Below, one piece after another: positions 4,772 through 52,586 of a stretch of DNA of 64,000 nt (the stretch's first letter is position 1; each line of letters starts with the position of its first letter). The position numbers and the translations under genes were made by a program. The notes beneath the pieces were generated by a model, which was given only the letters and a program-made list of their open reading frames with translations, did not search any database and was not told the origin of the DNA. Source of the stretch: Nitrospira sp. (lineage in GTDB: Bacteria; Nitrospirota; Nitrospiria; Nitrospirales; Nitrospiraceae); assembly GCA_015709715.1 (NCBI GenBank), contig CP054184.1, positions 2,341,001 to 2,405,000 of the forward strand, given 5' to 3'.

Positions 4772-5929
4772 ATGCGGACCGGTAACCAGCGCATGGAGCA
4801 GATGGCCCAATCCGAGATTCGTGCGATGACGCAGGCTTGCGCACGGGTCAACGGCATTAACATGGCGCAGGGGGTCTGTGATACGGGGGTGCCGTCGCCG
4901 GTGGCCCAAGCCGCGCAACGAGCCATCGACCTGGGGGTCAATATTTATACTCGATACGACGGGTTGCCGGAGTTGCGGCAGGCCATCGCGAAGAAGCTGG
5001 CTTCTTACAATCAACTCACGGTCGACCCCGAGCAGGAGGTGACCGTCAGCGCCGGCGCCACGGGGTCCTTTCACTGTGCCTGCCTGGCCTTGCTGAGCCC
5101 CGGCGATGAAGTCATCGTGTTTGAACCGTACTACGCCTACCACATCAGCGCGCTCGTAGCGGTGGAGGCTGTGCCGCGAGTCGTCCGGATGCATCCTCCG
5201 GACTGGAGCGTGTCGCGTGACGAGCTGCAGCAGGCGATCACGGGGCGCACCAAGGCGATCATCCTCAATTCGCCCGGCAATCCGTCCGGTAAGGTCTTCA
5301 CGCGCGAGGAACTCGAATGGGTGGCCGCCCTCGCCCGCCGGCACGATCTCTTCGTCTTCACCGACGAGATCTACGAGTACTTCTTGTTCGATGCACGACG
5401 GCACATCAGCATCGCCACGTTGCCGGATATGGCGGAGCGGACCATCACCATCGGCGGCTATTCGAAGACCTTCAGCATCACAGGCTGGCGAATCGGCTAC
5501 AGCGCCGCCCATGCCAAATGGGCGCAGCTTATCGGGGCCATGAACGACCTGTTGTATGTCTGCGCGCCGGCGCCGTTGCAGTATGGGGTGGCGCGAGGGA
5601 TCGAAGAGTTGCCGACCTCCTTTTACCTCGAGCTTGCGCGTGAGTATCAGCAGAAGCGGGATCGTTTCTGCGGGGCTTTGGCAAAGGCGGGCCTCACGCC
5701 GTCGGTGCCGGAGGGGGCCTATTATGTACTGGCGGATATTTCCCGTCTGCCTGGCTCGACCGGCAAGGAACGGGCAATGTACCTGTTGGAGCAGACGGGG
5801 GTAGCAGGCGTGCCTGGAGAAGCCTTCTTCAGCAGCTCGGACGGGCACCGCTTCATGCGATTCTGTTTCGCCAAGACCGACGGCGATCTTGCCGAGGCCT
5901 GTGAGCGGCTCACTCGTCTTGCCTTGTGA
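4772..5929 (+). CDS. class I/II PLP-dependent aminotransferase
   Basis: A 385-residue fold-type I aminotransferase of the AspC/PatA kind. The Schiff-base lysine is K232 in GGYSKTFSITGWRIGY. SPGNPSG at 167-173 contains the conserved Asn, and TDEIYEYF holds the cofactor-contacting Asp and Tyr. The C-terminal FMRFCF provides the substrate-carboxylate Arg. The substrate cannot be fixed from sequence; aspartate, aromatic or branched acceptors are all possible. It has its own predicted promoter and no tightly linked pathway partner. Confidence 0.88.
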   Translation: MRTGNQRMEQMAQSEIRAMTQACARVNGINMAQGVCDTGVPSPVAQAAQRAIDLGVNIYTRYDGLPELRQAIAKKLASYNQLTVDPEQEVTVSAGATGSFHCACLALLSPGDEVIVFEPYYAYHISALVAVEAVPRVVRMHPPDWSVSRDELQQAITGRTKAIILNSPGNPSGKVFTREELEWVAALARRHDLFVFTDEIYEYFLFDARRHISIATLPDMAERTITIGGYSKTFSITGWRIGYSAAHAKWAQLIGAMNDLLYVCAPAPLQYGVARGIEELPTSFYLELAREYQQKRDRFCGALAKAGLTPSVPEGAYYVLADISRLPGSTGKERAMYLLEQTGVAGVPGEAFFSSSDGHRFMRFCFAKTDGDLAEACERLTRLAL

Positions 5930-36851: not shown

Positions 36852-36942
36852 AGAGGGGGCTCCGGAAATTCGGACAGTGTGATCAGTGGTAGCCTGGCTT
36901 CAGCAAAGCCACCGCGAGGTGGCGACACAAAGGAGCGAGGTA

Positions 36943-37242
36943 ATGAAGAGGACGAGACGGAACCACGGAGCGACCTTTAAGGCCCAGGTGGCCTTGGCCG
37001 CAGTCAAAGGTGACAAGACGGTGGCCGAGTTGGCCGAGCAGTTCAGGGTCCATCCCACCCAGATCACCGAATGGAAGCAACAGCTGCTGGCTCGGGCGGC
37101 GGATGTGTTTGGCGGCTCAAAACCGCCGTCGGAGGCGCCGGATCTCAAGACCCTGCATGCCAAGATCGGGCAACTGACCCTCGAGAATGATTTTTTAGAA
37201 GGCGCGCTCACCAAGGCGGGCTTGCTGAGCGCAAAGCGATGA
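36943..37242 (+). CDS. IS3-family OrfA (transposase helix-turn-helix part)
   Basis: A 99-residue protein starting at ATG 36943: RNHGATFKAQVALAAVKGD and TVAELAEQFRVHPTQITEWK are the HTH of IS3-type OrfA, followed by a leucine-zipper-like helix (LHAKIGQLTLENDFLEGAL). It binds the IS ends. It overlaps orfB by 4 bp (ATGA), where coupled translation or frameshifting would occur. Confidence 0.92.
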   Translation: MKRTRRNHGATFKAQVALAAVKGDKTVAELAEQFRVHPTQITEWKQQLLARAADVFGGSKPPSEAPDLKTLHAKIGQLTLENDFLEGALTKAGLLSAKR

Positions 37243-37770
37243 GTGATCGCACCCATCCATTACCGATCGGGCGACAATGCCAGGTGCTGCAGCTGGCCCG
37301 GTCGACCGCGTACTACCAATCGAAGCCTGTCTCCGCCGCGACGCTGGCACTCATGCGCCGGATCGACGAGCTCCATCTGCAGTATCCGTTTGCTGGCGCT
37401 CGCATGCTGCGGGATTTGTTACGGCAGGAGGGCCATGCCATTGGGAGACGACAGGTCGCGACGCTGATGCGACGGATGGGCATCGCGGCGATCTATCGGA
37501 AGCCGAGGACCAGCCAGCGGCATCCTGCCCATCGGATTTATCCCTATCTGCTGCGTCAGCTGACGATCACGCGGCCGAATCATGTGTGGGCGTCTGATAT
37601 CACGTACATTCCGATGCGGCGTGGCTTCGTGTATTTATGCGCGATTCTCGATTGGGCCAGTCGCCGGGTGTTGGCGTGGCGGCTGTCCAACACGTTGACC
37701 ACAGACTTCTGCGTGGAGGCGGTACGGGAGGCAGTCACCCGGTATGGCACACCCGAGATCTTCAACACGG
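37239..37770 (+). pseudogene. IS3-family OrfB transposase, 5' part
   Basis: Start ATG 37239. Contains the N-terminal YPFAGARMLRDLL region and the first catalytic Asp in WASDITYIP of the DDE integrase core. The frame is cut at FNT by the IS21-family insertion at 37771. The rest continues at 41098. Spliced, the two parts make 276 residues (831 bp, a whole number of codons). Confidence 0.9.
37766..37770. repeat. target-site duplication CACGG (left), partner 41093-41097
   Basis: The 5 bp duplication flanks the IS21-family element. Removing the element and one copy restores FNTDQG in orfB. Confidence 0.85.
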
Positions 37771-37852
37771 TGTCAACACCGATGATGTTTGTCCCCAAAT
37801 CACCGACGTAGAATGTCCCCTGTTCACCGGTCTTCCTGTCCGCTCGTCGATA

Positions 37853-44223: not shown

Positions 44224-44327
44224 TGCGGCTCCTCGAGCGGGACGGTTTGTCGATCGCACGTCCCCGCTGGCGAAAGTCTAAGCGGCTTCCCGTAGAGGGT
44301 CAAGAACTGTGCAAGATGGCTCGTTCG

Positions 44328-44356
44328 TTGAAGCAGCCGGAAGGTGGTGGTATAGT
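44328..44356 (+). promoter_or_regulatory. sigma70-type promoter of the CARF gene
   Basis: TTGAAG (44328-44333), exactly 17 bp, TATAGT (44351-44356). The ATG at 44366 lies 9 bp beyond the -10, so the mRNA would be leaderless or nearly so. No ribosome binding site is seen there, which agrees. Confidence 0.55.
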
Positions 44357-44365
44357 CCGGCGGTC

Positions 44366-45622
44366 ATGGCGCCAGACAGCCCCGTCAAAGCCCTCGTCCT
44401 CGCCTTCACCGACGCATCGGCGCCGGCGGCCTATGTGATCAACCGGCTACAACCGGAGCTGCTGTGCTTCTTCGTCCCGGAGTCGGCCAAGGCGCAGGTG
44501 GAGGCGGCCGTGCAACCCTTGGTGCGGCAGATGCCGAAGCGGTGGGATTGGGTCGTCACGCCCGATCCGAGCGACGTCATTGCCTGTCACCAGGCCCTGT
44601 CGCGGTCTCTTCACGATCTCTTTCAAACCTGGGACGTCCGGATGGGCGAGGTCGTTGTCGATTTGACCGGGGCTACGGCTGCCATGGCTGCCGCCTTGGC
44701 CTCTGCGAGCCAGCCCTGGACCTCGCGCGTCATCAGCCTGGTCGATGCGCAGGGGACGGAGGAATCGGAGCCCATCGTCATCGATGGCATCGGCAAACGC
44801 TGGGTGCAAGGGAACCCATGGGATGACGCGGCAGTCGTCGTGCGGCGCGAGGCCTGCGAGGCTTTCAACCATGGCTCATTCAAGTCGGCGGCGATCCTGT
44901 TTCATACGCTCGAAGCCAGGGTTAGCGGCGGCCAGAAGCCGCTCTATCGCGCACTCGGCGATTTGGCATTGGGGTATGGATTGTGGGAACAGTTTCACTA
45001 TCGACAGGCCTGGGAGAAACTCAAGACTTCTTTTAAGGCGCTCGACATGGCCTCGCTTTGGGGGGGACCACCGGGCTTGAAAGCGCTGCTTCCCGCCATC
45101 AAGGCGAACAGCGGATTTTTAGAAAAACTCGTGCTGGATCCGGCCGAGGTGAAGGACGGAGTCGTCCTGGATTTGCTGGCCCATGCGCATCGCCGCGCGC
45201 AGGTGGACCACGATCCCGAGCGAGCGATGGCGACGCTCGTGCGGGCGCTGGAAGCCGTCGCCCAACGACAGCTATTCAAACAACACAAAATCAAAACGTG
45301 GGATGTGCAGCCGGACCAGCTGCCGGCGGACCTCCGCGACACCTGTCGCACCTGTTGCCTGGACGATGTCGATGGGAAATACAAGCTGCCCTGGCAGGGA
45401 CAATTCCGCGTACTGGCCGGATTGGGTGATCAGACGGGCCAGGCGTTTCTTCGTGAGTGGCCCAAGATGAAGCCGCTGATCGATGCCGCTAACCACGCGG
45501 TGCTCGGCCATGGGTTTGAGGCGATCAAGGCCGAGCGGGTGCAGCAGCTGGCCGAGATCGTCATGAAACTCAGCGGCGTCACCGACAACGCGTTGCCCAA
45601 GTTCCCGGTGCTCGCTCTCTAG
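44366..45622 (+). CDS. CARF-domain protein, Cas02710/TIGR02710-like
   Basis: A 418-residue protein. The N-terminal CARF fold has the key VVVDLTGATAAMAAALA (residues 97-113), corresponding to the D-x-T-G-G-T-K nucleotide-binding motif, with Ala for the usual Lys. The C-terminal helical part (AVVVRREACEAFNHGSFKSAAILFHTLEARV and HYRQAWEKLK) resembles the Cas_Cas02710 family. Such proteins sense cyclic oligoadenylates in type III CRISPR systems. There is no CRISPR array or cas gene in this window, so its role is unproven. No HEPN RxxxxH motif was seen. Confidence 0.7.
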   Translation: MAPDSPVKALVLAFTDASAPAAYVINRLQPELLCFFVPESAKAQVEAAVQPLVRQMPKRWDWVVTPDPSDVIACHQALSRSLHDLFQTWDVRMGEVVVDLTGATAAMAAALASASQPWTSRVISLVDAQGTEESEPIVIDGIGKRWVQGNPWDDAAVVVRREACEAFNHGSFKSAAILFHTLEARVSGGQKPLYRALGDLALGYGLWEQFHYRQAWEKLKTSFKALDMASLWGGPPGLKALLPAIKANSGFLEKLVLDPAEVKDGVVLDLLAHAHRRAQVDHDPERAMATLVRALEAVAQRQLFKQHKIKTWDVQPDQLPADLRDTCRTCCLDDVDGKYKLPWQGQFRVLAGLGDQTGQAFLREWPKMKPLIDAANHAVLGHGFEAIKAERVQQLAEIVMKLSGVTDNALPKFPVLAL

Positions 45623-45644: not shown

Positions 45645-46046
45645 ATGGATGTGCGCATCTACTACGAGGACACCGACTGCGGCGGAGTGGTGTATTACGC
45701 CAATTATCTGAAGTATTTCGAACGGGCGCGGACGCAGTATCTGGAAGAGCGCGGCCTCTCGGTCTCGGGGCTACGGGATCAAGGGACGCAGTTCGTGGTC
45801 GTGCATGCGGAGGTGGACTATCGCTCCCCGGCCCGGTATGGCGAGACCCTGATTGTGGAAACCACGCTGGGACCGGTCAGCCAAGCTTCTTTTACCTTTG
45901 CCCATGTCGTGCGCGAACGACAGAGTGGTCGCCTGGTGGTCGAGGGCGCGGCCAAGTTGGTGACGGTGGACGATCAGTTGAAGGTGAAGCGGCTCGACAA
46001 ATCGACTCTGGCTACGTTACAAGGACCTCCACAGACGAGGGGCTAA
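45645..46046 (+). CDS. ybgC: acyl-CoA thioesterase YbgC
   Basis: A 133-residue hot-dog-fold protein. YYEDTDCGGVVYYANYLKYFERART carries the catalytic Asp11. This is the 4-hydroxybenzoyl-CoA thioesterase subfamily linked to the Tol-Pal system, though tol genes are absent here. Start ATG 45645 is 22 bp after the CARF gene. The stop overlaps the next ATG in TAATG. Confidence 0.92.
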   Translation: MDVRIYYEDTDCGGVVYYANYLKYFERARTQYLEERGLSVSGLRDQGTQFVVVHAEVDYRSPARYGETLIVETTLGPVSQASFTFAHVVRERQSGRLVVEGAAKLVTVDDQLKVKRLDKSTLATLQGPPQTRG

Positions 46047-46153
46047 TGGAGAAACTCGGTACATGGTTGGCCATCACCGGCGTGGCAATCGGCTTCGTCG
46101 TCCTCGCCTGGCTGCTCTTCTCGGAGAATCCAAAAGATAAGAAAAAGAAATAG
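46046..46153 (+). CDS. 35-residue single-helix membrane peptide
   Basis: ATG at 46046-46048 shares its A with the ybgC stop (TAATG), giving translational coupling. The product has one membrane helix (LAITGVAIGFVVLAWLLF) and a lysine-rich C-terminus (NPKDKKKK). Size and coupling suggest a small accessory membrane protein of the ybgC operon. No known family. Confidence 0.55.
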   Translation: MEKLGTWLAITGVAIGFVVLAWLLFSENPKDKKKK

Positions 46154-46200
46154 AGCCATGATTGCGGCGCTGTCCCTGCTGCACTCGTGAATGGTGCGGG

Positions 46201-46506
46201 CTAGGTGTCCAGAGGGACCGCCTTGGCTCGGCTGCGGAGAAATGCCAACAGCGGATCGAGCTGAGGCACCATGCTCATGTCATCCACCACCGCGCGCAGA
46301 ATCTGCCCGGCCTCTTCGACGACCACCTCATAGCTGGTCAGGTCGCGACCCCGTTCTGTTTTCCGTACTCCGATCTCCTGGAGTTTGGCTTGTTCTACCA
46401 AATGGGTCAACCGGAGCCCCTCGCTTGGTGACAGTGTGGCGGTATCCAGGTCGCATCCGAGGACGAGACCTCCAAATCCTCCCGTTTGACGGAAGCGCAC
46501 TTTCAT
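46201..46506 (-). CDS. emfourin-like protealysin inhibitor
   Basis: A 101-residue protein: MKVRFRQTGGFGGLVLGCDLD, EGLRLTHLVEQA, TSYEVVVEEAG and a C-terminal DPLLAFLRSRA. This matches the emfourin (M4in) inhibitor family, which in other bacteria is encoded next to protealysin-like M4 proteases and binds them tightly. It follows the protease gene (46511) with 4 bp between, so the two are probably translated together. Confidence 0.82.
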   Translation of the reverse strand: MKVRFRQTGGFGGLVLGCDLDTATLSPSEGLRLTHLVEQAKLQEIGVRKTERGRDLTSYEVVVEEAGQILRAVVDDMSMVPQLDPLLAFLRSRAKAVPLDT

Positions 46507-46510
46507 AACG

Positions 46511-47578
46511 TCAGAATCCTACGGCTTTCCAGGCTTTCACCACGGCCTTGTATTCGGCGCTGCCGGCGCCATACAGGGTGGATGCCGTTTCTGTCGAGCT
46601 CTCGACCATATCGTGAAACTGGCTGGTGGAGGTCAGTTTCAATAATGTCTTGTACCAGATTTGGCCGGCACGCTCCCAGGCCTTTCCGCCGATCTCGGTC
46701 GCGACCAGGTAGAATGCGTGATTGGGGATGCCGGAATTGATATGTACACCGCCATTGTCGCTCGAGCCATTGTACTTGTTCCTGAGGTGTTTGGGTTGGG
46801 GATCGGTTCCCAGCAAAGGATCATTCTCGTAAGCCTTTTCGGCTTTGAAAGTGCGAAGAGATTTGGCGGTAGTCGCCGGACCCATGATGTCATTCCCGAT
46901 CAGCCAGTCGGCGCTCTTGACCGACTGCCGCCGGCGCCACTGCTTCACCAGGCTGCCGAACACGTCGGCGAAGTGTTCATTGAGAGCACCCGGTTCGTTC
47001 GAATAGACCAGGTTGCAGGTGTGTGAAATGATACCGTGTGAGAGTTCATGTCCGACGACGTCCAACGATTTGGTGAATCGGATGAAGATTCGACCGTCTC
47101 CGTCGCCATAACACATCTGTTCGCCGGTCCAGAAAGCGTTATTGAGATTGCGTCCCAGGTGGACACTGGAAATGAGACTCATGCCACGATCGTCCAGCGA
47201 GTTCCGCTGAAATACTTTCTTGTAAAAATTGTAGGTGGTTCCCGAATGGGTGTAGGCCTCGTTCACCGCCGGATCGTCGCTCCGCGGGTCCCTTTCCTCC
47301 CGCATGAGTGTGCCGGGGAGATCGTTGAAGTTGCCGTGCTTCACATCGTAGACCAACCGATGGCATTTCGCGGATGGTGAGGGGACTGCGGCCCACCCCG
47401 CCATCATGGCCAAGGTAGACCGGACAGCGCGCGCAGCGGACCCCGCAGCGATGGCGTCGATCGCCAGCTGCCGAACCTTGCTGTCGTCCGACTTGGCCAG
47501 CTGATCGAAGACATAAGGTGGAATGATGGAGCAGAAAGTCTGGCACTCAGACGAATGGGTTCTCTGATCAATCTGCAT
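46511..47578 (-). CDS. protealysin-like M4 metalloprotease
   Basis: A 355-residue protein. HELSH at residues 177-181 supplies two zinc ligands and the catalytic Glu178, and GALNEHFADVFG has Glu201. GGVHINSGIPNHAFYL contains the transition-state His region. The short propeptide (CSIIPPYVFDQLAK) marks the protealysin branch, and there is no signal peptide; such enzymes may act inside cells or be released without Sec. AGGAG stands 6 bp before the ATG. Confidence 0.93.
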   Translation of the reverse strand: MQIDQRTHSSECQTFCSIIPPYVFDQLAKSDDSKVRQLAIDAIAAGSAARAVRSTLAMMAGWAAVPSPSAKCHRLVYDVKHGNFNDLPGTLMREERDPRSDDPAVNEAYTHSGTTYNFYKKVFQRNSLDDRGMSLISSVHLGRNLNNAFWTGEQMCYGDGDGRIFIRFTKSLDVVGHELSHGIISHTCNLVYSNEPGALNEHFADVFGSLVKQWRRRQSVKSADWLIGNDIMGPATTAKSLRTFKAEKAYENDPLLGTDPQPKHLRNKYNGSSDNGGVHINSGIPNHAFYLVATEIGGKAWERAGQIWYKTLLKLTSTSQFHDMVESSTETASTLYGAGSAEYKAVVKAWKAVGF

Positions 47579-47847
47579 AGGTCACTCCTGCTGGTGAGCC
47601 GCGTCTTGAGAGTAGGTGAAATGCTTCGTGAGGAAGAAAGCAATCTGGATGCCGCGAGAGGGAGTGGGGGAAGGGAGTGGATTTGTTCGCGTTAAAATAC
47701 GGGCAATTCACCCCGGCCGTTTCGATGTAGGGGAGACGTATCGGAAGTGATACCGCTTGTGTATCGCAACGGATACGAACTGAGCGAGGGACCGACGGTG
47801 GGGAGAGGCCTTGCTGCTGCCCAGCCACGAGGCTGCCCTACGGAACC

Positions 47848-48150
47848 CTATGGACGAGACTGAGGCCCGCTGCTTCGCGTGAGGGCATCGATGGGGCCGG
47901 TGACTTCCACTTGAACCTTGACTCCTTCGATTGTCGTCGGAAGCTGCTTCGTCACGGTTGCATCGTGAACACCGATCACGATTACGGGGTCGCCTAGGAG
48001 GCCTTGTCCTATTCCCACCATTTCCACGCCGGCGATGCTCATGAGCCGACGACGGTTCGTTTCCAAGACTCGTTCTATCGTACTTTGCGGTACGTCGCGC
48101 TCGCTGGGTGCGTAGGGCATGGCTGCCTCTTCGTGCGCGTGCTCGTCCAT
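47848..48150 (-). CDS. stand-alone copy of the neighbour protease's N-terminal domain
   Basis: A 100-residue protein starting at ATG 48150 (AGGAG upstream). GVEMVGIGQGLLG, VIVIGVHDA and KVQVEVTGPIDA align with GVGIALGASDY, LQIYVVES and TGFIDA of the protease at 48283-49512 (its residues 105-175). It has no catalytic residues. Lying between that protease and the M4 protease, it may be a separate propeptide-like or inhibitory module, an inference by analogy with emfourin. Confidence 0.6.
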   Translation of the reverse strand: MDEHAHEEAAMPYAPSERDVPQSTIERVLETNRRRLMSIAGVEMVGIGQGLLGDPVIVIGVHDATVTKQLPTTIEGVKVQVEVTGPIDALTRSSGPQSRP

Positions 48151-48282
48151 AGTTTCTCCTTGGGCAGAGGGCCTCGGATACGATTGTACTCTCCAAGACG
48201 ACGTGCTGCAAAGCAGTCTGCCAGGAAGAGGTGGAAGGAGGGGCACGTTTCATTCGTGCCCCTCGCGATCCTACGGTCGCCG

Positions 48283-49512
48283 TTAGGTGTACAGTCTGAT
48301 AGCAAGGGCGGAGAGCACGTGGGTGATTCGATTCGCAAAGGTCCAGCCGCCGCCTCCGGCGAAGAGCAGGCCGACCGGACTACGACGACCGTCCCACGTC
48401 CAGATGAGCGAACCCGAGTCCCCGCCCGCGCTGAAATCTCCGGACAGTCCCTTGATGCCGATCTGGTCGCGAAAATGGGCTACTCGGCCGCCGCCGTAAC
48501 CGACGTTTACGCTGACGCCCACCGACATGATACGTCCGGTGGTGATCTGAGTGGTCCGTCCGGACTTGCCGACCAGCATCCCAAGTTGAGCGGCCACGGG
48601 CGCGCTGCTGACGGTAAAGAAGCGCGGCTGGCCCTGTTGGAGATAGACCAATTCCTTGCGGACCCGATCCGGCCAAGCCCAACCGGTCGCAGCATCTACG
48701 TAATTGACGGTCCCGCCGCTGAAGTTGATGGGAACAAATCGTTCCAAAATAGCGATTTGATCTTTCGGGCACGCTCCACCGTCGTAGGGGCCCGGCTGGC
48801 AAATGCAATCACCGTATGCGGCATTGTTTGAATTGGCCAGTACATGGTTATTGCTCAAGATCATCAGGCGCGAGTTGCGGGGCGCACTCAGTCCGGTCGC
48901 CAAGCACCCCAATGTGCCGGCGGTGATCCGAAAATGGCCGGCCGAAATCCCTCCCGGGGCCGGTCTCATCCTGAAGCGGTGCGGTTGTGCATCGATGAAT
49001 CCGGTACGGACGATGGACAACGGAACATCGTCTCCGCTCAGGACTGAAATTCCCATCGACTCTACCATCACCGACTTCATCACGTCCGCCGATGTCGATT
49101 CAACGACATAGATTTGCAGGCAGGGCATTCCTGGCTCTAGGCTCATACTCATGCCGTCGGCCTGGCCGTAATCGGATGCGCCCAGCGCGATCCCCACGCC
49201 CACGATATTGTTCATTCCGGTGTACGTATCCTCGGCCAGTGCCCTGGTTCTCATGGAGGCGGCCTTCAACTGCTCCTCTACTTGATGTTTGATGTCCAGA
49301 AGTTGAGCATCCACTCCCAGGACCGCCGCCCTTGTCTCTGCCGCTGCGGCCTCTTCGGCGTTGTCCGGTGTGGGTTCCTCAAATTGCTCTGTCGTCGCCT
49401 CCTCATACTCGTGCTCAGTGTCCTGCGGCGGCTTCGGCGACGGAGGGTCCTGGAATCCTTGTTGCTCGACCCGTCTTTTCGGCTCATCTTTTCTGGGAGT
49501 CTTCTCAGCCAT
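48283..49512 (-). CDS. trypsin-fold serine protease, atypical
   Basis: A 409-residue protein. The first 60 residues are Pro/Glu-rich and unstructured, without a signal peptide. A small domain follows (about 100-176, NNIVGVGIALG to FIDA), then a chymotrypsin-type protease with His223 (ILSNNHVLAN), probable Asp273 (NYVDAAT) and Ser366 (GGDSGSLIW). The gene is on the minus strand with the V8-like protease upstream. Substrate unknown; the arrangement resembles plant NAL1-like proteins, but only loosely. Confidence 0.85.
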   Translation of the reverse strand: MAEKTPRKDEPKRRVEQQGFQDPPSPKPPQDTEHEYEEATTEQFEEPTPDNAEEAAAAETRAAVLGVDAQLLDIKHQVEEQLKAASMRTRALAEDTYTGMNNIVGVGIALGASDYGQADGMSMSLEPGMPCLQIYVVESTSADVMKSVMVESMGISVLSGDDVPLSIVRTGFIDAQPHRFRMRPAPGGISAGHFRITAGTLGCLATGLSAPRNSRLMILSNNHVLANSNNAAYGDCICQPGPYDGGACPKDQIAILERFVPINFSGGTVNYVDAATGWAWPDRVRKELVYLQQGQPRFFTVSSAPVAAQLGMLVGKSGRTTQITTGRIMSVGVSVNVGYGGGRVAHFRDQIGIKGLSGDFSAGGDSGSLIWTWDGRRSPVGLLFAGGGGWTFANRITHVLSALAIRLYT

Positions 49513-49574
49513 GATCGTTCTCCCTCAAATCATGAATTGATGCGATGAGTTTGTCGTGGTGCGACGGCTTCGGC

Positions 49575-49667
49575 TCAAGGAGCGATCAGCGAGTCGAACG
49601 TCGCCTCGCAACCATCGTTCTGCGCGCCGGATTCAGGCTGCGAGCAATAGTGAGTAGGAGCCGCCAT
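49575..49667 (-). CDS. possible 30-residue Cys-containing peptide
   Basis: Minus-strand ATG at 49667 has GAGGGG 6 bp upstream and runs to TGA at 49575-49577. The product has two Cys (THYCSQPE and DGCEATF). It sits in the gap between the 49681 gene and the trypsin-like protease. Could be a processed peptide, or chance; no relatives known to me. Confidence 0.25.
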   Translation of the reverse strand: MAAPTHYCSQPESGAQNDGCEATFDSLIAP

Positions 49668-49680
49668 TGTCATCCCCTCT

Positions 49681-49902
49681 TCATGGGATGATCTCGAGTT
49701 CCGTCACGGTCGTATCGCTGTCGGGCGCCCGCCGAAGCACGCGAACACGCTGACCCGGTCGGAGCACGCCCGGGTCGACGAGGACTCCGGCTCGATATAT
49801 GCGCACATTCTCATCCAGCACCACGTCTTCTCTCACGGAGTCACTCTGCAACACTAATTGCAGTGGCCAGCTTTCCATTATGTGAATGATCGTGGTTTCC
49901 AT
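49681..49902 (-). CDS. small beta-rich protein of unknown function
   Basis: A 73-residue protein from ATG 49902: METTIIHIMESWPLQLVLQ, NVRIYRAGVLVDPGVLRPGQRVRVLRR. The pattern of alternating strands with a PGQRVRV turn suggests a small OB- or SH3-like fold. There is no clear ribosome binding site. It lies between the V8-like and trypsin-like protease genes on the same strand. No family recognised. Confidence 0.5.
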   Translation of the reverse strand: METTIIHIMESWPLQLVLQSDSVREDVVLDENVRIYRAGVLVDPGVLRPGQRVRVLRRAPDSDTTVTELEIIP

Positions 49903-49970
49903 CGAGATGGTGTATCCCAACCGAGGCGGACAACCCCTTCGGTTGCCCGCCCACGGTCACCGGCATGGAA

Positions 49971-50975
49971 TCAGCTGTTCCGCCAGCTCATCATGTTGTT
50001 GAACACTGCCGTAACGATTCGAGTCGAACTGTTGGGGCAGCCACCATAGGCGTGGATACCGACGGCATGGCGCTGACCGTTCTGAAAGCGCCATGTCGGA
50101 CTGCCGCTTTGGCCACCGTAGGTATCAAGCATGTAATAGATCTTGCGAGCCGTGACATTGGTCACGCGTCCCGCGTTGTACCATTGGGTGCCGAATGGTT
50201 TGTCGCCGGGATACCCCGAATTGTTTACCAGGAGATTCTGTAGAGAGGCATCGGTCAACGCCGCAAATCCGAAGTAGCCCAGTTGATTGCCAAGATTGGG
50301 ACTCGGCAGGATGATGCATCCATAATCGTAGTTGGGGTCGCTGTTTTGTGTCCAGCCAGTGACGCTTCGGAAGGACGTTCCGATCATGGATCCGTACGGA
50401 CGAATGGCCCCTCTCATGCCGGGAATGACTTCGATCTGACGCGCCCACCCACCGTTGGCCCGTGAATACACGCAATGGCCGGCCGTCATGACCGCTTTGG
50501 GCCCGATGAACCAACCGGTGCAGCCACCGCTCGCACCATTTGGAAACGTGATAATGAGCTTGCAAATCCACCGCCATGGCACGATGGTCGTGTTTGTCAC
50601 CTCGACACGATCGTCTCTGCCGCACACGGTTTCAGGAACAAATCCCTCTGGTCGACACTCGCCAAGCTCCAGCAGCTCGTCGGTCAGGATTTCCTTGGGC
50701 ATTCCTTCGCCCAGCGCACGCTGAGGATCAAATCCCGACAAACTCTCCAGTTCTCCGCCAAGCGCGGCCCCGTCGAAGCTCTCAGCGACTTGATCGACGA
50801 CGATGGCGGCTTCCCCTGCGCTGCCTTCGCCGCCGCCTTCGCTGCTCACCGGAGCGTGTGGTGAACGCGCGGATTCTCCCGTGCCTCCCTCACCGCTGCA
50901 GCCACATCCAGGCTTTGAGCCGCCGCTATCGGCCGGCTTTTCAGATTCGGACTTGCTTTCATTGTGTTTCGACAT
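49971..50975 (-). CDS. V8-like (glutamyl-endopeptidase-type) serine protease
   Basis: A 334-residue protein. The first 60 residues are low complexity (Ser/Glu/Gly, CGCSGEGG) and then acidic; no signal peptide. The triad is His167 (VMTAGHCVY), Asp217 (NYDYGCIIL) and Ser290 (YGGQSGSPTW). GGCTGWFIGPK and CKLIITFPNG are typical S1B features. It is the first gene of the minus-strand protease set. Zymogen processing would have to occur in the acidic N-region. Confidence 0.88.
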   Translation of the reverse strand: MSKHNESKSESEKPADSGGSKPGCGCSGEGGTGESARSPHAPVSSEGGGEGSAGEAAIVVDQVAESFDGAALGGELESLSGFDPQRALGEGMPKEILTDELLELGECRPEGFVPETVCGRDDRVEVTNTTIVPWRWICKLIITFPNGASGGCTGWFIGPKAVMTAGHCVYSRANGGWARQIEVIPGMRGAIRPYGSMIGTSFRSVTGWTQNSDPNYDYGCIILPSPNLGNQLGYFGFAALTDASLQNLLVNNSGYPGDKPFGTQWYNAGRVTNVTARKIYYMLDTYGGQSGSPTWRFQNGQRHAVGIHAYGGCPNSSTRIVTAVFNNMMSWRNS

Positions 50976-51323
50976 ACGAACACCTCCCTTTCCGATCGAT
51001 GAAGTGAACCGTCAATGTGGGTGACGACGCTTCAGGGAGGAAGCAAAACCGGTACTCAAAAGATGGAGCAGGGGGCTTCGCTTATTTGATGCCGCGATAC
51101 GAATGGAAGGATTGCTTGGGGCGGGAGACCACGAGACAAGGGTGTATCTAAACGAAAATGCGTGCTTTACCCAAAGAGATACAGGGACATAAGCCTTCCT
51201 GCCATCTGCAGAGGCGAGGCTTCCTTCGGCTCTTCCGGGAATGTCTCGTCGAAGTGCGGAGAGAGCGATGGAGACTGACGCCGCCCGCTCTATCGGAGGG
51301 GCCGGTGGTCGGAACCGGGCCGG
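50976..51323. other. 348 bp without a credible gene
   Basis: Between the start of the V8-like protease (50975) and the end of the SGNH hydrolase (51324). Frames here are short shadows. It should contain the promoter of the protease set; I cannot point to a convincing -35/-10. Confidence 0.5.
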
Positions 51324-52586
51324 TCAAGATCCAGGCGGAATGGAAGGGGAACGAACCGTCAGCTGGGACTTGCTCAAGAGGCCGTCGAGTTCTCGACTCA
51401 CCAGTTCGGCGACGATGCGGTGACCGCGTTCATCCGGATGGGCGAGGTCCAGATAGAGACTGGGGTCTTGTGCCAGCACCTGTCCCGCTTCGACGACGAC
51501 GGCGCCGTACTCGCGCGCCACGGCCCGCACGATGTCGTTGTACTCGCTGTCGAGTCGTAACGGTCGTCCGCCGTGCGTCAATTTCCACGGGGGAAGCGTG
51601 AGCATCGCCATGCGCGTCGCCTCGCCCGCGGCCCCCTGCCGTTCAAGTAAGCCGGCCAGGTATTTTCTGGCCAGGTCGGAAAACCAATTGTCCATGTTGA
51701 CGGCAATGCGTAACTCAGCCTCGGCCTGCTCGTTGCGCCCTTGCGCCAAGTGCGCGAGTCCGGCGCGCAGGTGCTCGGCGTGCGCCGGATTGTCTTGAAA
51801 GGTGATGAATAGCAGGGGGACCTCGCGCTCCCGACAGAACCGCGCGATTCCCTCCAGGTTGGCGCGATAGTGCTCGGGCGAGACACGCGTGGGCGCCGTG
51901 CGCGCGTCCACCGCCAGGCCACCGTCTCCGTCGCCTTTCAGGAGCCCGGCCTTGACCAGTAGGCGCTGGATCAAGCGGTAGAGATAGATCTTTTCGCGCA
52001 CGACGTCGGTGCGATGGAGCAGTGCCTCACGTTCGAACTTCTCTCGACTGTCCGCCGCTTCCGCGGACGGCACCACACGCCGATCGTTGAAGCTGAAGGA
52101 GGCAATCACCATATCCGGGTGGACGGCATCAAAATATTTGCGCAGGGAGGCATAACCCTGAAAAGACGAGTAGCCGCTGACGCCCAGGTTGATCACATCC
52201 GCATCGGAACGCAGCGCATCCAGCACTTCGGGAAAGGCTTGGCTGGTCGGCACGCCCCACCCGAAAGTGTTGGAGTCGCCGATCGCCAAGATGCGCTTGT
52301 GGGCCGTATCCCGGACTTGCGCGGTATCGATGGTGAAGAAGCCGTGGGCGTCGAACTCGCGAAGGTACTGCGACGAATCCCGATGCCGCAACTCTCCTGC
52401 GACCAACCCGTTGAAATGGGGGCGGCGTTCCCATCCCAGGTCCGCCGCATATTGATACCAGTCGGTCGGTGTCGACGAGAGGTCGGCCCGCACGGAGAAG
52501 ACGACCCGAGACAGGCCTTCCAACGCCAGGAGTGAGGCGAGGGTCAGCCCCAATCCGATCAGGGGCGCGGTCCAACGACGAGTCAT
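51324..52586 (-). CDS. SGNH/GDSL-family hydrolase, membrane-anchored
   Basis: A 420-residue protein with an N-terminal hydrophobic segment (about 8-30). The catalytic serine block is AIGDSNTFGWG (Ser105), followed by GVSGYSSFQGY (Gly/oxyanion) and a C-terminal DLAHPDERGH with the Asp-His pair. The internal helical segment (RAGLAHLAQGRNEQAEAELRIA) is a TPR-like insert. Such proteins de-acetylate or hydrolyse envelope polysaccharide esters. Confidence 0.8.
   Translation of the reverse strand: MTRRWTAPLIGLGLTLASLLALEGLSRVVFSVRADLSSTPTDWYQYAADLGWERRPHFNGLVAGELRHRDSSQYLREFDAHGFFTIDTAQVRDTAHKRILAIGDSNTFGWGVPTSQAFPEVLDALRSDADVINLGVSGYSSFQGYASLRKYFDAVHPDMVIASFSFNDRRVVPSAEAADSREKFEREALLHRTDVVREKIYLYRLIQRLLVKAGLLKGDGDGGLAVDARTAPTRVSPEHYRANLEGIARFCREREVPLLFITFQDNPAHAEHLRAGLAHLAQGRNEQAEAELRIAVNMDNWFSDLARKYLAGLLERQGAAGEATRMAMLTLPPWKLTHGGRPLRLDSEYNDIVRAVAREYGAVVVEAGQVLAQDPSLYLDLAHPDERGHRIVAELVSRELDGLLSKSQLTVRSPSIPPGS

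Follow-up and report, generated by a model that had tools for sequence, protein, structure and literature searches.

The subject of this analysis is a block of six genes on the minus strand of a Nitrospira sp. genome (G000, a single contig of 4.16 Mb), contained in a window of 64,000 nucleotides that spans genome positions 2,341,001-2,405,000. The genes run in the order P0001, P0002, P0003, P0004, P0005, and P0006 (protease, small protein, protease, small protein, protease, and inhibitor). P0004 is a separate small protein related to the N-terminal domain of NARROW LEAF 1 (NAL1)-like proteases, the family to which the neighboring P0003 is assigned by fold, and the same pairing of protease and free-standing domain recurs in many phyla. 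The block is probably best explained as an acquired array of protease and small-partner modules, in which P0004 would serve in trans as a prodomain-like regulator of P0003, most likely as an inhibitor. The features of the block, in window coordinates, are as follows.

49971..50975, minus strand: P0001, V8/glutamyl-endopeptidase-like S1 protease, 334 residues (PF00089, 1p3c, homolog in G098)
49681..49902, minus strand: P0002, small orphan protein, 74-79 residues, with a possible TTG start at 49920 (gene-like codon GC)
49575..49673, minus strand: open reading frame (ORF) of 32 residues, a doubtful gene, with a GAGGGG-like site upstream (sequence only)
48283..49512, minus strand: P0003, predicted NAL1-like trypsin-fold protease, 409 residues (fold match, invariant triad columns)
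P0003, by residue: 1-50, disordered acidic tail; 52-97, helix; ~100-171, NAL1_N-like domain; 183-409, catalytic domain
47848..48150, minus strand: P0004, free-standing NAL1_N-like (prodomain-like) protein, 100 residues (family profile, fold match)
46511..47578, minus strand: P0005, protealysin-like M4 metalloprotease, 355 residues, with a putative short PLN-type propeptide (Pfam, 2vqx)
46201..46506, minus strand: P0006, emfourin, 101 residues (PF20242; the pair also occurs elsewhere, L031)
46150..51323, no strand: lineage-specific insertion, approximate extent, the right edge being bracketed only to 50976-51323

P0003 is assigned to the NAL1-like trypsin-fold proteases on the basis of its predicted structure. 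In fold comparison, the model matches rice NAL1 (8pn2_A) with a Z of 24.7 over residues 82-409 (288 aligned), a match that covers both the N-domain and the protease domain, and the catalytic domain next matches alpha-lytic protease and the streptogrisins (Z ~20-21.6). By sequence, a weak match to Nal1_C (PF25819) was obtained, with 21.3 bits against a cut-off of 26.1. The residues H223, D273, and S366 lie in columns that are invariant across 57 homologs. In the NAL1-like family, the median number of residues ahead of the domain is 12, and a hydrophobic segment precedes the N-domain in 2 of 75 proteases. A phage origin was considered and rejected: PHROGs contains P0003-like proteases (phrog_20754), yet a single archaeal virus was matched by tblastn.

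The identity of P0004 was established through its family. P0004 alone does not reach the NAL1_N profile (PF25608), which is matched by 17 of the 50 stand-alone family members; it is recovered by the family profile with an E of 4.4e-20, P0004 itself being in that profile. Its AlphaFold2 (AF2) model shows a helix-strand-strand-helix-strand arrangement with a predicted local distance difference test (pLDDT) value above 90 (~91) over residues 30-80. The best Foldseek match in the PDB is the alpha-lytic protease pro region (E 6.6e-3, probability 1.00), and 3pro and 4pro, in which the pro region is in complex with the protease, were matched as well. In VIA-align, the top match is to residues 91-171 of NAL1 (63 residues at 2.0 A, Z 7.9) and the second is to the alpha-lytic pro region (Z 7.0). 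PDB sequences searched with the profile of the small domain gave no significant match. Thus, by fold, both halves of the pair point to the same relatives, NAL1 and alpha-lytic protease.

The recurrence of the pair was assessed with a protease-only alignment scanned against one genome per species (84,980 species). The best 80 of 592 matching stretches, i.e., the closest relatives, were kept, and the frequency of the partner therefore applies to these rather than to NAL1-like proteases as a whole. Stand-alone domains (proteins of <=135 residues) were searched for in these loci with a profile built from four small proteins. A stand-alone domain gene was found within ~2 kb in 62 of the 80 loci, and the loci come from Chloroflexota, Desulfobacterota, Gammaproteobacteria, Actinomycetota, Bacteroidota, Bacillota, and others. 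It lies downstream on the same strand in 44 cases, upstream on the same strand in 9, and convergently in 3; of the same-strand downstream genes, 26 are within 50 nt of the protease gene and 19 overlap it. Several of the remaining loci are on short contigs. In addition, a second copy of the domain is fused in frame to the C terminus of the protease in L094 and L113, and one copy sits within a longer overlapping frame in L101.

Nearer to the window, a P0004-like small gene is located downstream of the P0003 homolog in three other genera of the same taxonomic order (L022, L023, and L024). The small protein beside the L024 protease is 44% identical to P0004, and the small proteins of these loci align to the N-terminal domain of the neighboring proteases. 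A 50-member profile (A3) gave 14 matches in 10 of 101 related genomes: the stand-alone matches (in G000, G045, G084, and G099) are all beside a protease, and the other matches checked (all but the third one in G050) are N-domains of longer proteases. When plasmids were searched with P0004 or with its ortholog, no match was obtained at an E of 1e-3. On the other hand, a Rubrobacter plasmid pair that was reached via the protease does contain the small domain protein, and in the single annotated plasmid example checked both members are labeled "hypothetical protein".

In some loci the cassette has three genes, the NAL1-like protease and the stand-alone domain being separated by a gene for a ~300-residue protein that is rich in beta structure and has an acidic, helical N-terminus (L022 8124-9047, L043 4939-5877, and L047-L056 at about 4920-5890). 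Besides L022, the loci belong to marine Gammaproteobacteria and Thermodesulfobacteria, and the third protein is possibly a substrate or cargo. Pfam and NCBIfam gave no or weak matches for the protease, the small protein, and this third protein. No description of the protease and stand-alone pair was found among the open-access papers that were searched, and no paper on the structure of NAL1 or on trypsin-fold prodomains that stand alone was found among them either, which is weak evidence of absence. The association of NAL1-like proteases with a separately encoded N-domain is widespread and multi-phylum and, as far as could be found, undescribed.

It appears that the two members of the pair have a long common history. 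In a tree of 144 domains, the N-domains of proteases and the stand-alone domains are largely apart, with 7 label changes against 48 in shuffles and few resolved deep branches, which argues for old co-inherited partners rather than repeated duplications. The distance matrices of protease and partner are correlated (r 0.65, permutation maximum 0.14), although host relatedness was not removed and shared host phylogeny alone could suffice for this value. The stand-alone proteins contain little beyond the domain at their C-terminal end: 54 of 67 end within 2 residues of the domain end, 20 of these with an AQ-stop.

In the proposed mechanism, P0004 would bind P0003 and hold it inactive in trans, P0003 would be released at a later point to act on its substrate, and P0002 may act likewise on P0001. 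Inhibition is predicted by analogy with emfourin and with the stand-alone subtilisin propeptide-like proteins, which are potent inhibitors and one of which is encoded next to subtilase genes (PMC6993865). Several observations weigh against this mechanism. P0003 and P0004 have no direct BLAST similarity, and the link between them runs via the family. The match to alpha-lytic protease covers the N-terminal half of the pro region, which is not clearly the part that plugs the active site, and a Z of ~7 can reflect a common arrangement. The solved NAL1 protein also retains the N-domain, which therefore does not have to be an inhibitory propeptide.

The last point also bears on a different role for the free-standing domain, namely, that it helps the NAL1-like protease to fold or joins it as an oligomer subunit. 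In alpha-lytic protease, the pro region acts as a folding catalyst as well as an inhibitor, the C-terminal fusions in L094 and L113 indicate that the domain can remain part of the protease chain, and in the rice NAL1 structures the N-domain belongs to the mature chain. However, every protease examined has an N-domain of its own, which would make a second copy redundant for folding, and some relatives (e.g., G008, G023, and G015) do without a stand-alone protein. A role in folding or assembly is thus considered unlikely, and inhibition in trans remains the preferred function of P0004.

Another point concerns the compartment in which the pair would act. In a number of loci, the stand-alone ORF and the protease gene share 4 nt at the protease stop (L070 4987-5271, L089 4945-5229, L090 2411-2695, L095 4984-5268, L099 4951-5223, L118 4762-5025, L119 4990-5280, L078 5011-5295, and L079 4996-5280). 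These ORFs seem to start with a leader that resembles a signal peptide or lipobox, and their proteases have none. This too counts against inhibition in trans, since a leader on the partner only would place the two proteins in different compartments, unless an internal Met is the true start. Most of the leader-bearing ORFs do contain an internal Met where the domain starts, and a leaderless protease in the clade with leader-bearing partners starts right after a strong ribosome-binding site. If the leader starts are right, they would favor a periplasmic immunity protein.

Such an arrangement would be expected of effector-immunity modules, in which the proteases are antibacterial toxins that act in the periplasm and reach their targets without Sec signals, whether through a contractile injection system, in vesicles, or upon lysis, while immunity is conferred by the small proteins. 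In the earlier note on this DNA, the three proteases had been described as lacking Sec signals, and this holds within the limits of a crude test, the 11-residue Kyte-Doolittle maximum: the values for the three proteases are -0.2, -1.4, and 1.4, and no hydrophobic N-terminal segment was found in any of them by it. The long disordered tails noted for two of the proteases are also present, as a long polar N-terminal tail in P0001 and as a stretch of low pLDDT at residues 1-50 of P0003. Both tails are compatible with delivery as effectors, as is the location of the block as lineage-specific cargo at a variable spot, and the protealysin-emfourin pair has already been proposed to be an effector-immunity pair (PMC9505478). 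As for a secretion system, which was to be sought nearby, one of the extracellular contractile injection type is encoded in this genome at ~4.004-4.025 Mb (L139 18187 to L140 19601), with sheath-like, gp19 tube, Pvc16, and AAA proteins and two eCIS_core/DUF4157 proteins, and it is a possible export route for leaderless proteins; however, this locus is 1.6 Mb from the block, and nothing ties the tails to it. Furthermore, the NAL1-like family is tail-free in many Gram-positive and archaeal genomes, and the start codons of the leaders are ambiguous. Effector-immunity modules are accordingly regarded as a rather unlikely alternative to the regulated protease array. As a separate observation, the same IS3-like transposase sequence is present in the window at 36886-37811 and near the injection-system locus (L139 6128-6958).

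With regard to the second module, P0005 and P0006 are by sequence a protealysin-emfourin pair, which is an already known kind. P0005 matches PF02868 (E 2e-51) and PF01447 (E 4.5e-32), both above the cut-off, contains the HELSH...NE motif, and aligns to protealysin (2vqx) over residues 14-354 (E 3e-82). The PLN propeptide profile (PF16485) gives a weak match, with 16.8 bits and a cut-off of 28.1, and the alignment to protealysin begins at residue 14. P0006 is directly downstream of the M4 gene and matches Emfourin (PF20242) with 53.1 bits (cut-off 27). It was reported that protealysin and emfourin are encoded in one operon and that emfourin inhibits protealysin (PMC9505478); inhibition of P0005 by P0006 is predicted. 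The M4-emfourin pair also occurs in G054 (L031) and is annotated on Rhizobium and Caballeronia plasmids. In three Nitrospira-like relatives, emfourin is preceded instead by a HETGH protein of ~540-560 residues (L028 9650-11266, L029 8088-9743, and L030 7687-9363), for which, as checked for L029, no Pfam, NCBIfam, or PDB match was found. Emfourin may therefore also guard a non-M4 metalloprotease.

The third module is less certain. P0001 is assigned to the V8/glutamyl endopeptidases (S1B-like) by its trypsin fold, triad, and similarity, with a putative specificity for Glu; it matches PF00089 with an E of 2.7e-8, its best solved relative is the glutamyl endopeptidase 1p3c (E 6.6e-26), and its N-terminal polar tail comprises ~110 residues. 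A homolog in G098 is 50% identical and is followed by an unrelated gene of 101 residues, and a wider search across the phylum found relatives of P0001 in four genomes only. For P0002, neither a family match nor a convincing homolog among the 100 relatives was found. The possibility that P0002 is a conserved partner of V8-like proteases was rejected, as it has no homolog and its sole weak match in G098 is in an unrelated reading frame. P0002 may still be a partner of P0001, which is a guess from gene order. V8-like homologs also occur in other clusters: in L039 6091-9866 (G019), one is clustered with a VanY-type peptidase and an OmpA-domain protein that have a common N-terminal FEAEPF motif with it, perhaps a sorting tag. 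In L145 2812-5218 (a Paenibacillus plasmid), another lies between two S8 peptidase genes, forming another protease cluster, and a 150-residue ORF overlaps its end and precedes the second S8 gene.

A broader proposal is that free-standing NAL1_N-like proteins are pan-bacterial inhibitors of trypsin-fold proteases derived from a protease prodomain, and that the block comprises three protease-inhibitor pairs (with P0002 as a third, unrelated inhibitor) serving as toxins exported without Sec or as cell-death proteases with immunity. This is considered unlikely in its full extent.

The block is a lineage-specific, one-off insertion between a 4HBT thioesterase gene (45645-46046) and a GDSL-lipase gene (51324-52586), since in seven genomes of the same genus the flanks are present and the block is absent: their intervening DNA holds none of the six genes, and their DNA similarity to the window stops at ~46150. 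The two flanking genes and a Csm6-like gene (44309-45622) adjoin in same-genus genomes, and some of these carry other cargo at the same spot, including a metallo-beta-lactamase-fold protein, an extra lipase, and a four-helix protein. The GC content at third codon positions (GC3) is 0.64-0.70 in the six genes and 0.72-0.79 in their neighbors. The product of the Csm6-like gene is a HEPN-domain protein (PF09670 and PF22205) and is kept in 32 of 41 relatives with conserved neighbors. A role of the block in anti-phage defense was rejected, as PADLOC matches were at chance level only.

Within the block, the gaps are ~50-70 nt between P0001 and P0002, 132 nt between P0003 and P0004, and 4 nt between P0005 and P0006, and codon-position GC is gene-like in P0002, P0004, and P0006. 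Perfect or near-perfect inverted repeats without T-runs are present between each serine-protease gene and its small gene (49918-49945 and 48238-48264), and scans for promoters and terminators gave chance-level results only.

The earlier note had interpreted the locus as a dedicated system of three unrelated proteases. The ORFs and family matches bear out a protease block with small genes on one strand, and each protease keeps its catalytic residues (TAGHC / DYG / GQSGSP in P0001, in addition to those given above for P0003 and P0005). However, two of the three proteases have the trypsin fold, which leaves two folds rather than three unrelated proteases. A conserved three-protease system was rejected, as co-occurrence of the three families was looked for and no second case was found in ~100 relatives or around the 80 P0003-like loci, in addition to its absence from the seven genomes with the flanks. 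In the 100 relatives, emfourin, P0001-like, and P0003-like genes each occur in few genomes and never together. Nor is each protease normally alone, as had been considered: pairs of protease and small partner recur instead, and the conserved unit is a protease with its own small partner, not the trio. The statement that no described system has this combination stands insofar as the same combination was seen in no other genome examined, but the M4-emfourin pair within it was already described. A further reading, that three degradative enzymes became neighbors by chance in a variable spot with incidental small ORFs, is consistent with the uniqueness of the trio to this genome, the different cargo of relatives at the same spot, and the lack of a homolog of P0002. 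It is nevertheless highly improbable, given that other genomes also contain two of the three protease-partner pairs and that the lower GC3 is common to all six genes.

What is new is the P0003-P0004 pair, which had been missed in the earlier note, the M4-emfourin pair having been described before (PMC9505478). If the proposed regulation is true, a NAL1-like protease with a free-standing N-domain would be the trypsin-fold counterpart of the subtilisin propeptide-like inhibitors. The pair also hints at what the N-domain may do in plant NAL1, the product of a crop-yield gene with poorly understood regulation, and array-like clustering of proteases with partners is relevant to the question of why active proteases that lack Sec signals are retained in the bacterial cytoplasm.

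Four known systems are comparable. The stand-alone subtilisin propeptide-like inhibitors (MEROPS I9; SUB1-ProM, PMC6993865) likewise include a free-standing small relative of a propeptide adjoining a protease gene, but those act on subtilisins in eukaryotes, whereas the case described here is bacterial, involves a trypsin fold, and has predicted inhibition. The protealysin-emfourin operon of Serratia proteamaculans (PMC9505478) agrees with P0005-P0006 in near full-length matches, gene order, the 4 nt gap, and the apparent lack of a signal peptide; the pair described here, known from its sequence alone, differs in standing beside two serine proteases with small genes of their own. Rice NAL1 (Pfam NAL1_N / Nal1_C) is matched by P0003 in both the N-domain and the catalytic domain, with the catalytic triad kept, whereas P0003 is bacterial, has an acidic disordered tail, and is accompanied by an adjacent gene for a second, separate copy of the N-domain, an arrangement of which no description was seen for NAL1. 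Finally, alpha-lytic protease provides the nearest non-NAL1 folds to both proteins, the catalytic domain for P0003 and the pro region for P0004; alpha-lytic protease is a secreted enzyme with a pro region made in cis, whereas in this block the related domain is also encoded by a separate gene and the protease has no Sec-like leader.

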